From the NCBI GenBank assembly GCA_016745035.1, contig JADGDE010000001.1, positions 1,030,507 through 1,094,506 on the forward strand: a stretch of DNA of 64,000 nucleotides, given 5' to 3'. The position numbers were made by a program, and so were the translations under genes. The notes under the pieces were generated by a model, which was given only the letters and a program-made list of their open reading frames with translations, searched no databases and was not told the DNA's origin. This DNA comes from Thiotrichales bacterium (GTDB taxonomy: Bacteria; Pseudomonadota; Gammaproteobacteria; Beggiatoales; Beggiatoaceae). Below, piece after piece: positions 49,341 to 53,961 of the stretch (the first letter of the stretch is position 1; every line of letters begins with the position of its first letter).

Positions 49341-49997
49341 ATGAAAAATATCATCCTATTATTATCCTTATGTCTCAGCCCTAACCTATGGGCAGATGAT
49401 AAACTGGCCGATGTCTATGGTTTACGGGAGGAGCAGGCTTTGAAAAAATTAATCAATGACAACAAGGGAAAAACCGATAAGCAACAAGGTATTGCTTGGC
49501 ACAATATGGCGGTGTTGGAAAAATCCGGCGCAGCCGATAAAGCCTTTGATATTCTCAATGCCTTGCGGAAAAAACACCCTAAAGACTATGAAATCCTTGC
49601 CTATTTCGGCAGCGCGCAAACCATGGTAGCACGGGACTCTTGGAACTTTTTTACCAAAACCAGTAACGTCAACAAAGGCGTGGCGCTGTTGGATAAAGCC
49701 GTTGCCAAAGACAAGGACAATCCGGTGATTCGTTTGGTACGTATCAACAATACCCTCGCTTTGCCTGAATTTTTAAACCGCATTGGCAAAGTCAAAACCG
49801 ATTTAAATTATTTACTGAAATTATTTGAGCGAATTGAGGCGCGTGCGGTGGTACAAAGTGAGACCTATTATTTAATGGGACAAGAATTGCGCAAAAACAA
49901 AAAAGCCAAAGAGGCGCAAGGCTATTTGCAACAAGCCGTGGATGTTGACCCCGAAGGCGAATGGGCAAAAAAAGCCAAGGCAGCCTTAAATGGTTAA
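49341..49997 (+). CDS. Secreted TPR protein heading the ABC/LolA-like operon
   Basis: The 218-residue product has a signal peptide (MKNIILLLSLCLSPNLWADD, cleavage at LWA-DD) and helical TPR-like repeats (WHNMAVLEKSGAADKAFDIL; YYLMGQELRKNKKAKEAQGY). It overlaps the next gene by 8 bp, so it is translated with the ABC transporter and probably works in the periplasm with it. I recognise no closer family. Confidence 0.75.
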   Translation: MKNIILLLSLCLSPNLWADDKLADVYGLREEQALKKLINDNKGKTDKQQGIAWHNMAVLEKSGAADKAFDILNALRKKHPKDYEILAYFGSAQTMVARDSWNFFTKTSNVNKGVALLDKAVAKDKDNPVIRLVRINNTLALPEFLNRIGKVKTDLNYLLKLFERIEARAVVQSETYYLMGQELRKNKKAKEAQGYLQQAVDVDPEGEWAKKAKAALNG

Positions 49998-50655
49998 AGT
50001 CGAGCAGGTGGTTAAAACCTATCAATTGGGCAAGCAACAGGTGCAAGCCCTCAAAGGCGTGAGCTTGGAGGTGCAAGCCGCTGAGTTTGTCGCCATCACG
50101 GGCACATCGGGCAGTGGTAAATCAACCTTATTGCACCTGATTGGCTGTTTAGACCTGCCCACGGCTGGGCATATTCATATTCTCGATAAACGCACCGACA
50201 CGCTCTCAGATAAACAACAATCGTGGCTGCGCAATCAATTTTTAGGCTTTATTTTTCAATCGTTTAACCTGATTCCGGTTTTAACTGCGTTTGAAAATAT
50301 CGAGTACCCTTTGCTGTTGCAAGGCTTGTCACCCAAACAACGCCAACAGCGGGTCAATGGCTTATTAGAGCGTGTCGGTTTGAGCGAGCACTCCCACCAT
50401 CGCCCCGATTATTTATCTGGCGGACAACGCCAACGGGTCGCCATTGCCCGCGCTTTGGTGACAAAGCCAAAACTGGTCTTAGCCGATGAGCCAACGGCAA
50501 ACCTAGACTCAAAAACCGGCACAGAAATTTTGGATTTGATGAAGGATATTTGTTTGCAAGAAAAAACCAGTTTTGTCTTCTCTACCCATGACCCAAAAAT
50601 CAGCCACTATGCCAGCACCATTTATACCTTAAAAGATGGGGTATTACGGCAATGA
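49990..50655 (+). CDS. ABC transporter ATPase (LolD/MacB-type)
   Basis: The 221-residue ATPase has Walker A GTSGSGKSTLLHLIG, the loop FIFQSFNLIPVLTAFENIE, signature YLSGGQRQRVAIARAL and Walker B LVLADEPTANLDSKTG. This is the MacB/LolD group, which powers mechanotransmission rather than ordinary uptake. It overlaps the TPR gene (8 bp) and the permease gene (4 bp). Confidence 0.93.
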   Translation: MVKVEQVVKTYQLGKQQVQALKGVSLEVQAAEFVAITGTSGSGKSTLLHLIGCLDLPTAGHIHILDKRTDTLSDKQQSWLRNQFLGFIFQSFNLIPVLTAFENIEYPLLLQGLSPKQRQQRVNGLLERVGLSEHSHHRPDYLSGGQRQRVAIARALVTKPKLVLADEPTANLDSKTGTEILDLMKDICLQEKTSFVFSTHDPKISHYASTIYTLKDGVLRQ

Positions 50656-51875
50656 AAATTTTGAGCTTGGCTTTTCGTAATATCCTCCGCAATAAACGCC
50701 GCACCTTTTTAACCCTTTCTGCCATTATCTCTGGGGTTTGTAGTTTGGTGATTTTTGGCGGTTTTATCGAATTCACGTTTGAAGGGCTGCGTGAGTCTAC
50801 CATCCGCACCCAACTTGGCCATGTGCAAATTTACCAGCAAGGTTATAACCAGCATGGGGTTGCCAATCCGGCAAAATATTTAATCCAAGAGCCGGAAAAG
50901 GTCGAAGCCAGTTTGCAAGCTTTGCCTGAAGTGCTCAGTGTTACCCGCCGTTTGAGTTTGTCGGGCTTGATTAGCAATGGCAATAAAACCTTAAGCGCCA
51001 AAGTCACGGGCATTATTCCAGCGCAAGAGGAGGAGTTTTCCGCCTTTGAAACCTTGCTTGATGGTCAGCAATTGGATGAAGAGCTGCCACACGGCGGGGT
51101 TATCGGGGTTGAGCTGGCAAAAGCTTTAGATGCCAAGATTGGTGATTATTTAATCATCATGACCAACACCCTCGATGGCGCAATCAATGCGGTCGAGTTT
51201 GAATTGGTCGGTATTGCGCAAACAGGCTCGCAAGAGTATGACAGCGTCTTTGTTAAATTGCCGCTGGCGGTGGTACAACAAGCCTTAGAGACCGATTCAG
51301 TAGAAAAAATTATGGTCTTATTAGAAGAAAGTTCACAACTCGATGGTGTATTGACGCAATTGCCGGGGGTGTTGGCGCAAACGGGACTGGAGTTAGAATA
51401 CCGCAGTTGGAGGGACATGGCACTGTTTTACCATAAGGTGGTGGCGATGTATCAAGGCTTGTTTCAAGTCATACAAGTTATCATTGCCGTGATTGTCTTA
51501 TTTAGTATTATCAATACCATGACCATGGCGGTGTTTGAGCGTACCCGCGAGATTGGCACACTCCGCGCTATTGGTACGCCACGCGGGCATATCATGCAAT
51601 TGTTTATCACCGAGGGCTTTTTACTCGGTATTTTAGGCGGTTTGTTGGGCTTGGTGATTGCGATTTTGATTGCTTTTGGCATTAACGCCTCTGGCGGCAT
51701 TGATATTCCGCCACCGCCGGGCATGTCGCGGGGCTATTTGTCGATGATTTTAATTGTCCCCAGTGTTTTGTTTTATGCCTTTTTGTTGACGGTGTTTGTC
51801 GCGGTGTTATCGAGCATTTTGCCCGCGTGGAAAGCCAGTCGGATTAAAATTGTGGAGGCTTTGAGTTATATATGA
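50652..51875 (+). CDS. ABC transporter permease (FtsX/MacB-type)
   Basis: The 407-residue product has the family topology: an N-terminal helix (RTFLTLSAIISGVCSLVIFG), a large periplasmic domain (about residues 40-270), and three C-terminal helices with FERTREIGTLRAIGTPRGHI, the coupling-helix motif for the ATPase. It overlaps the next gene at ATGA, so all subunits are made together. The partner OMP and LolA-like protein suggest transport or lipid/lipoprotein extraction across the envelope. Confidence 0.92.
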   Translation: MKILSLAFRNILRNKRRTFLTLSAIISGVCSLVIFGGFIEFTFEGLRESTIRTQLGHVQIYQQGYNQHGVANPAKYLIQEPEKVEASLQALPEVLSVTRRLSLSGLISNGNKTLSAKVTGIIPAQEEEFSAFETLLDGQQLDEELPHGGVIGVELAKALDAKIGDYLIIMTNTLDGAINAVEFELVGIAQTGSQEYDSVFVKLPLAVVQQALETDSVEKIMVLLEESSQLDGVLTQLPGVLAQTGLELEYRSWRDMALFYHKVVAMYQGLFQVIQVIIAVIVLFSIINTMTMAVFERTREIGTLRAIGTPRGHIMQLFITEGFLLGILGGLLGLVIAILIAFGINASGGIDIPPPPGMSRGYLSMILIVPSVLFYAFLLTVFVAVLSSILPAWKASRIKIVEALSYI

Positions 51876-52675
51876 GTATATCTATTGACGCGCCGCTGGA
51901 GCGACGCAATCTGCATTCCCACGCTGGAGCGTGGGAACGAGTAGAGCAAATCGTGATTTTAGTCTTCAGCTTGTTTTTTTATACGGCTGTCAGTGCCGTG
52001 CCAGAGCCGCAAACGGCGCTACAAGCGGTGGATAATATCCGCGCCCCTGGGGATAATTTCAGTTTTACCTTGGATGTCGAGCAACAACGCCCTGATGACA
52101 AAACACGTCATTTTCAATTTGATGTCAAAGTCAAAAACAATGAAAAAAGCCTTGTTACCTATACTGAGCCGAAAAAATCTAAGGGCAAACGTATTTTAAT
52201 GGTCGGGGCGAATTTGTGGATTTATATTCCCACCACCCGTATGCCCATTCGTATTTCAGCCCAGCAAAAAATCAGCTCCGGCATTGCCAATGCTGATGTC
52301 GCACGGGTGGTTTATAGCCTTGATTATCAAGCGGACAGTATTAAAACGGTGCAGCTAGAAGACAAAGACAGCTATCAATTATCCTTAAGCGCTAAAAACA
52401 AAGGCGCTGCTTATCAAGCCATTGAATTGTGGGTTGCCACTGATGACTACCAGCCCATCAAAGCTGATTTTTATACCAAAACCGGACGCAAACTCAAAAG
52501 CATTTATTATCAAGATTATCAATTGGTCTTAGGTAAAAAACGCCCGATGTTGCTAGAAGTGCATGATGCCCTTAATCCTGAAGATAAAATCTTTATGCGC
52601 TATAGCGAGCTAAAATTGGCAGATACGCCAGATATGTATTTTCAAAAAAGCTATTTACCCCGTTTGCCACGTTAA
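51872..52675 (+). CDS. LolA-like outer-membrane lipoprotein-sorting protein with repeat-derived N-terminus
   Basis: The 267-residue product has the LolA-like fold: QALDNI-type start, KTRHFQFDVKVKNNEKSLVT, KGKRILMVGANLWIYIPTT, RIVYSLDY and LEVHDALNPEDKIFMRYSEL, as in proteins that pass lipids or lipoproteins through the periplasm. Residues 6-24 (DAPLERRNLHSHAGAWER and V) come from a 57-bp repeat lying between the ATG and the hydrophobic core (IVILVFSLFFYTAVSA). The ATGA overlap with the permease supports 51872 as the genuine start. GTG 51951 would give a short core without the repeat and is less likely. Confidence 0.82.
   Translation: MSISIDAPLERRNLHSHAGAWERVEQIVILVFSLFFYTAVSAVPEPQTALQAVDNIRAPGDNFSFTLDVEQQRPDDKTRHFQFDVKVKNNEKSLVTYTEPKKSKGKRILMVGANLWIYIPTTRMPIRISAQQKISSGIANADVARVVYSLDYQADSIKTVQLEDKDSYQLSLSAKNKGAAYQAIELWVATDDYQPIKADFYTKTGRKLKSIYYQDYQLVLGKKRPMLLEVHDALNPEDKIFMRYSELKLADTPDMYFQKSYLPRLPR
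51885..51941 (+). repeat. Family-3 57-bp repeat, copy 1, inside the LolA-like coding start
   Basis: The sequence runs from TTGACGCGCCGCTGGAGCGA to GGGAACGAG and contains the palindrome TTCCCACGCTGGAGCGTGGGAA. It is the reverse complement of 52701-52757 with two mismatches. Confidence 0.95.
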
Positions 52676-53961
52676 TGATTAATTTAAGCTCACTGTTCCA
52701 CTCGTTCCCACGTTCTAGCGTGGGAATGCAGATTGCGTCGCTCCAGCGGCGCGTCAAACTTTTATCTCTTATCACTTTTTATCTATTCTCTTTACCAACG
52801 CTCGCCAACGATTGGCTACAATCAGCCGAATTAAACTACCGCCCCCGCTACATAGAAACTCAAACCCCACTCACCGACCCACAAGCCCAGTTACTTGATT
52901 ACAGCCACCACCAAGCCGAGTTTTACGCCCTAATCAAACTGCATAAAAGCCTTGATAAACTAAATATCATCTCCCAACTGCGCCCCAGTTGGACATACCA
53001 GCAGCAAGCACACGAAGCAGGTTTTAATATCGACGAGTTATACCTAGATTATGCCCTTAGCCCCAGTATCTTTCTCAGTCTGGGTAAACGTAACCTCTTT
53101 ACTGGCGTTGCCCTGGGTCGTAATCCCACTGATTATTTGGCTGAAAATAAAAGCGTGGATAGCAGCCAAGACCCAGAGCGCCGCCGCGATTTACGCCGAG
53201 GCAATTACTTACTCACAGCCGAGTGGTATTTAGACAATGCCCATTTAAGCCTTGCCTTTGCCCCCCAGTTTAACGATACACAGCCAGAAAAAAACCGTTT
53301 ATTGCTGCGTTATAACCAGCTATTAGAAGCATGGAATACCGATGTCACCGGTTTTGTTTTCTTAGCGGAGCGAGAGGGCTTGGGGTTAAACCTATCCACC
53401 ACGGTCAATGATAACTGGGTGGTGTATGCCGATGTGTCCCTACGGCGCGGGCGAGACCGCCAGCTTGAAGGGGTGACAACACATCATCACAAGAATGTAT
53501 TTACCGATGCCGTCCTAGGCTCCAATTACAGCTTTAACAATGGTCTTGGTTGGTATGCAGAATATTGGTATCAAGAAAATGGTTACAGCGATAGCGAATG
53601 GCAAAGCCTGATAGATTTAAGCCAACAAAGCACAGCGCAACTCAACAGCCCCGCGCATGGCCTTGGCATCGAACAACTGGTTAGTATCAACCAAGCACTA
53701 AAGCCCTTATATTTACGCCAGCACTACCTTTTTAACCGCCTAAGCTACGCCATAGACAGCAACACAGAAACCAGCCTCAGTCACATTTTCAACCTAGACG
53801 ATAACAGCCAACTGATACGTTGGCATGTGCAACGCAATATTGCCGATATGCAACTGCGCTTACAACTGGAACATTTAGCCGGGCAACAGCAATCCGCCTT
53901 TGCCATGCGCACCGCACAGACCACGGTGCTACTCAATCTCAATTGGCGTTTTAGTCCTTAA
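52675..53961 (+). CDS. Outer-membrane beta-barrel protein with repeat-derived N-terminus
   Basis: The 428-residue product (from ATG 52675, overlapping the previous stop as TAATG) has a hydrophobic core (VKLLSLITFYLFSLPTLA-ND) and alternating beta-strand motifs with aromatic ends (WLQSAELNYRPRYIET, LDYALSPSIFLSLGKRN, HLSLAFAPQF, NGLGWYAEYWYQENG), ending in TTVLLNLNWRFSP. It is an outer-membrane protein of unrecognised family. Residues 9-27 are encoded by a 57-bp repeat, and ATG 52726 inside the repeat is an alternative start (MQIASLQRRVKLLSLITFY). The operon position suggests it is the outer-membrane partner of the ABC/LolA-like system. Confidence 0.75.
   Translation: MINLSSLFHSFPRSSVGMQIASLQRRVKLLSLITFYLFSLPTLANDWLQSAELNYRPRYIETQTPLTDPQAQLLDYSHHQAEFYALIKLHKSLDKLNIISQLRPSWTYQQQAHEAGFNIDELYLDYALSPSIFLSLGKRNLFTGVALGRNPTDYLAENKSVDSSQDPERRRDLRRGNYLLTAEWYLDNAHLSLAFAPQFNDTQPEKNRLLLRYNQLLEAWNTDVTGFVFLAEREGLGLNLSTTVNDNWVVYADVSLRRGRDRQLEGVTTHHHKNVFTDAVLGSNYSFNNGLGWYAEYWYQENGYSDSEWQSLIDLSQQSTAQLNSPAHGLGIEQLVSINQALKPLYLRQHYLFNRLSYAIDSNTETSLSHIFNLDDNSQLIRWHVQRNIADMQLRLQLEHLAGQQQSAFAMRTAQTTVLLNLNWRFSP
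52701..52757 (-). repeat. Family-3 57-bp repeat, copy 2, inside the OMP coding start
   Basis: CTCGTTCCCACGTTCTAGCG to GGCGCGTCAA is the reverse complement of 51885-51941, 55 of 57 positions identical. Confidence 0.95.

Follow-up and report, generated by a model that had tools for sequence, protein, structure and literature searches.

A 54-bp palindromic repeat lies in frame in the signal-peptide n-regions of five predicted exported proteins of a Thiotrichales bacterium

Palindromic repeats dispersed in bacterial genomes are known to settle both between and within genes. The RPEs of Rickettsia are dispersed palindromes that are translated in frame inside many proteins, with the host protein tolerating the insertion (PMC2229807, PMC3733652). 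REPs are short hairpins, found in tens to hundreds of copies that are largely intergenic and sit close to the 3′ ends of genes; intragenic REP copies are known and, when found at N-termini, have been treated as probable mis-annotated starts (PMC3733652). REPINs correspond to inverted pairs of short hairpins (PMC3116915). In Yersinia, an RU-2/YPAL repeat contributes to the predicted signal peptide of YPO1552 (PMC2759123). Among sulphur bacteria, Candidatus Thiomargarita nelsonii is described as having a repeat-rich genome containing MITEs and palindromic repeats, with disrupted genes rather than insertions into signal peptides that preserve the frame (PMC4853749).

The window analysed here is a stretch of 64,000 nucleotides from a Thiotrichales bacterium (contig JADGDE010000001.1, GenBank assembly GCA_016745035.1). 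It contains an operon encoding, in this order, a TPR protein, an ABC transporter ATPase (49990..50655, + strand), an FtsX/MacB-type permease (50652..51875, +), a LolA-like periplasmic protein (51872..52675, +; PF17131, E 1.3e-36) and a second secreted protein (gene 2; 52675..53961, +). A Pfam search with the product of gene 2 returned no match; this protein may be outer-membrane or porin-like. The start codon of the LolA-like gene overlaps the preceding stop codon (ATGA), with the 3′ end of the permease gene providing this overlap together with a conserved GTGGAGG motif, and gene 2 starts on TAATG. As an earlier, sequence-only reading had noted, each of these coupled starts lies a few codons before a repeat, found directly ahead of the hydrophobic core of the signal peptide. 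Copy 1 (51888..51941, +) is read in frame as APLERRNLHSHAGAWER within the n-region of the LolA-like protein, and copy 2 (52701..52754, −), with two mismatches relative to copy 1, is likewise read in frame, as SFPRSSVGMQIASLQRR, within that of the gene 2 product. Across 64 nt, the two inverted arms (51885-51948 and 52694-52757) show 94% complementarity. The inverted pair described by the earlier reading is, therefore, real, with the unit more aptly defined as 54 bp (18 codons) than as the 57 bp proposed; both lengths are multiples of three, such that the claim of a frame-keeping length holds. The similarity of the two copies is far beyond chance, since a search with copy 1 as query yielded 41 matches in its own genome (4.18 Mb), the best other copy giving E = 2.5e-22, and since the repeat is carried by 38 of the 43 family genomes searched.

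In relatives, copies of the repeat are mainly intergenic and often form inverted pairs, mostly about 15-200 bp apart, an arrangement common in genomes G024, G029, G003 and G014 and rare in the window's genome. Given the prevalence of inverted pairs in relatives, the two window copies could be taken as the arms of a single REPIN-type pair parted by the lolA-like gene, rather than as two insertions. This is very improbable, as ~745 bp of conserved gene separate the copies here, in contrast to the spacing of most pairs in relatives, and as copy 1 matches a repeat on a different contig (100% over 55 bp) better than it matches copy 2. A strict-pattern scan of 84,980 named genomes yielded a sole match, in G024, a Thiotrichaceae MAG (the same locus as G024:C9).

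All copies in the window's genome align without gaps in a single 54-bp register, ACGCGCCGCTGGAGCGACG...GGGAACGAG. Twenty-one of the 41 are naked, with unrelated flanks, and about 20, which carry the variant sequence TTCCCAAGCTAGAGCTTGGGAA, form part of a longer MITE-like unit of ~117 bp whose ends are ATACCAAT...ATTGGTAT. These nested copies (loci L011-L025, L029, L097, L099, L100 and L103 of G000) contain CTAG, which closes some reading frames, and none is convincingly genic. When folded as DNA, the 54-bp unit forms two adjacent hairpins, with z-scores of -3.0 to -4.7 for three of four strands. The 18 codons of the element contain no stop in any of the six frames; because 6.8% of mononucleotide shuffles of the element share this openness, it is notable yet alone offers no proof of selection. 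An Rfam search with the repeat region and a literature search for the peptide SHAGAWER gave no matches. Alignment of the flanks of naked copies revealed neither inverted ends nor a consistent target-site duplication, and a dedicated transposase was not found; as such, we only infer that the element is mobile. Seven Y1_Tnp genes are present in the window's genome, one of which has a MITE-type copy within 1.5 kb. In G009, where only three copies of the repeat were seen, one (L191, G009:C2:3963125) lies 3 kb from the single, RAYT-like Y1_Tnp gene (G009:C2:3960037), a proximity that could reflect a link to a mobilising enzyme.

With its short hairpins, its many dispersed and mainly intergenic copies near gene 3′ ends and its inverted pairs, the element resembles REP, BIME and REPIN sequences. 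Unlike REPs and REPINs of the GTAG and CGTC superfamilies, it carries no GTAG or CGTC tag, with CTCG instead preceding the main palindrome, and it comprises two adjacent hairpins in 54 bp with no clearly linked RAYT gene. In the absence of both the tag and such a gene, the element is REP-like but is not filed in either superfamily.

A codon-usage gene call made around every copy in the window's genome placed 36 of the 41 copies outside genes and five inside. In each of these five genes, the repeat follows the start codon, keeps the reading frame and precedes the hydrophobic core of a signal peptide. The N-termini, with the insert given in brackets, read MSISID[APLERRNLHSHAGAWER]VEQIVILVFSLFFYTAVSA in the LolA-like protein, MINLSSLFH[SFPRSSVGMQIASLQRR]VKLLSLITFYLFSLPTLA in the gene 2 product, MINTEHCHP[TRSHAPAWECRFRRSSGA]FLLSFFLFYLGQAAA in a multihaem cytochrome, MLCFFSPLVQ[LVPTLQRGNAYCVAPAAR]TIITLILLILSSTSIA in a DsrE-like protein and MNK[HPHCGVGMQNSSLQRR]VLILILSLLPCITLA in NosD. 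Between them, the five genes read the element in four different frames. Family searches identified NosD (TIGR04247, E 4e-119) and matched the cytochrome and DsrE-like proteins to families as well, and the host proteins of the inserts are recognisable exported kinds. An SppA-like gene (L019) was considered as a further case and rejected, as the repeat there lies in an over-extended start with a better start downstream. Two further naked copies (L009 and L008/L102 of G000) are found only 12 and 24 nt ahead of signal-peptide genes, measured to the start codon. Among about 139 copies in ten genomes of relatives, no convincing instance of the same repeat in a signal peptide was found; the in-gene calls made there proved almost all to be over-extended starts or short, doubtful ORFs. 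In G004, a related-looking palindromic stretch (CTCGCTCCCACGCGCCGCGTGG...) is found upstream of nosD (locus L242).

Compared by description, the five in-frame insertions into protein-coding genes are like those of the Rickettsia RPEs. They differ in that classical RPEs measure 105-146 bp, as opposed to 54 bp here, in the host lineage, and in that RPEs are spread through proteins, whereas the in-gene copies considered here all lie in signal-peptide n-regions. The Yersinia case differs as well, involving one predicted protein and a new signal peptide rather than five proteins and existing signal peptides. The novelty of the present case is that the repeat recurs within one genome, in the n-regions of five exported proteins, and that orthologs show the start codon and signal peptide to have existed beforehand.

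Where translation of these genes starts was addressed by comparison with orthologs. The NosD ortholog of relative G012 is 82% identical and reads MSKKALFLLSLL, with no insert, such that MSKKALFLL in G012 corresponds to MNK[insert]VLILIL in the window's genome. In both genomes, the ATG that starts nosD shares nucleotides with the 3′ end of the same preceding gene, whose product ends in VDDE* in G012 and in ADDE* in the window's genome. Likewise, the LolA orthologs of G002, G026, G016, G032 and G031 share the permease-overlap start, in most cases preceded by the same GTGGAGG motif, and lack the insert. Such insert-free orthologs serve as empty-site comparisons, although they are not from sister strains. 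Because orthologs without the repeat retain the identical start codon, initiation is very likely to occur ahead of the repeat, in a signal peptide that already existed before the insertion.

It could nonetheless be argued that the starts were mis-called, with the repeat belonging to the 5′ untranslated region and the genes beginning within or downstream of it. This would be in line with the caution voiced for N-terminal REPs (PMC3733652), with the in-frame ATG found inside the repeat in gene 2 (codon index 17, giving MQIASLQRRVKLL...) and in nosD (codon index 11, giving MQNSSLQRRVLIL...), and with a GTG past the repeat in the LolA-like gene, the sole alternative start there. Yet, inspection of the sequence revealed no well-spaced Shine-Dalgarno motif for the internal ATG, and no ATG, GTG or TTG lies between the repeat and the h-region in the cytochrome, DsrE, NosD or gene 2 sequences. 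In the cytochrome and DsrE genes, moreover, no start codon occurs inside the repeat. When the conserved operon-overlap start codons of the LolA and NosD orthologs are also taken into account, mis-called starts become quite unlikely. Neither of the findings that the earlier reading had listed as counting against it, namely, conservation of these residues in relatives without a repeat or translation beginning past the repeat, was encountered, an internal start in gene 2 and nosD being the one point at which the second may apply. The conserved operon overlaps, the insert-free orthologs and the missing later start codons make it likely that the five copies are genuinely translated insertions.

The n-regions of signal peptides have no fixed length, allow basic residues and are cut away by signal peptidase. 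Since the n-region is cleaved off, an insert at this position is likely harmless, with tolerance presumably reflecting this cleavage and the insert presumably offering no benefit. Placement was compared with a control comprising a 400-kb stretch of the window's genome. Fifteen of the 21 naked copies are located past a stop codon at a distance of no more than 32 nt, whereas random placement between genes gave such proximity in 19% of cases (p 2e-7). Where insert-tolerant sequence was defined as intergenic sequence plus signal-peptide n-regions, with home-made and approximate gene calls and signal-peptide rule, n-regions accounted for 3.8% of such sequence and for 4.6% of that within 60 nt past a stop codon. 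Accordingly, 0.8 or 1.0 n-region copies were expected among the 21, as opposed to the five observed (p 0.0009 and 0.0023, respectively; p 0.006 and 0.012 when the two window copies are counted as one), in a test that was post hoc, the pattern having been found beforehand.

These observations are probably best explained by a non-autonomous, REP/REPIN-like 54-bp element that lands past stop codons and whose in-frame n-region copies, being tolerated, accumulate. As its placement near stop codons shows, the element, like other REPs, favours sites immediately beyond the 3′ ends of genes; where genes overlap as ATGA or TAATG, this landing spot falls in the first codons of the next gene of the operon. 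An insertion there would survive only if the frame remained open and the 18 added residues were harmless. In n-regions, such inserts would be tolerated, as they are cleaved off, and in this way the genome would have accumulated its in-frame copies in at least five exported proteins.

The count of n-region copies is about five times that predicted from tolerance alone, and something beyond neutral tolerance may, therefore, act on these copies, although the gene calls and signal-peptide predictions were crude and the test was post hoc. One such factor would be exaptation, with a basic peptide, R-rich in most frames, improving or tuning export, or with hairpins in the early mRNA tuning translation of the coupled genes. 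The excess itself (five copies versus about one expected under tolerance) and the strength of the hairpins would fit this proposal, as would the net charge of +2 or +3 contributed by the insert in four of the five proteins; in the cytochrome and DsrE-like proteins, all of the net positive charge of the n-region comes from the insert. The LolA insert, by contrast, adds no net charge, and the signal peptides of orthologs exist without any insert. Exaptation is considered unlikely. The suggestion of the earlier reading that Arg residues may help export agrees with the charge gained in four proteins and not with the LolA-like protein. Its broader proposal of repeated exaptation into secreted N-termini is borne out as regards recurrent in-frame n-region copies, in five genes and four frames, and not as regards a benefit for export, which the data do not require, since tolerance combined with landing just past stop codons suffices.

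Tolerated insertion of this sort suggests that signal peptides offer a safe place for palindromic repeats, which adds to their known tendency to insert into genes. It would provide mobile DNA with a simple route to becoming coding while leaving the mature protein undamaged, and the five proteins constitute a natural experiment on the amount of sequence that the n-region of a signal peptide can take up.

A second palindrome was encountered in relative G017, whose LolA ortholog reads MFNKFPLTPKSPLNPLFQRWERISAQVFILLLMSFACTSQA, as compared to MFNLLILLL... in G016 and G032. The extra DNA in the G017 lolA n-region contains the palindrome CCCCCTTTTCCAAAGGTGGGA, unrelated to the 54-bp element. The pattern of this palindrome gave 11 matches in G017, versus none for a reversed-pattern control, and was absent from three other genomes searched. 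It is also in frame in acnB, where it accounts for ~12 extra residues relative to G003. Because the G017 palindrome sits in both the lolA n-region and acnB, in-frame palindromic inserts occur more broadly in this bacterial family. The entry of two unrelated repeats into the same LolA-like signal peptide in two lineages would be a sign that n-regions are recurrent sites of both landing and retention, with frame-neutral palindromes acting as interchangeable basic cassettes that tune export or coupled translation, a reading that we deem unlikely. At loci L271-L280 of G017, the palindrome (CCCCNNTTTTCAAAGGNGGGA) is apparently in frame in glycosyltransferase, PheT-like and STAS-domain genes, too.
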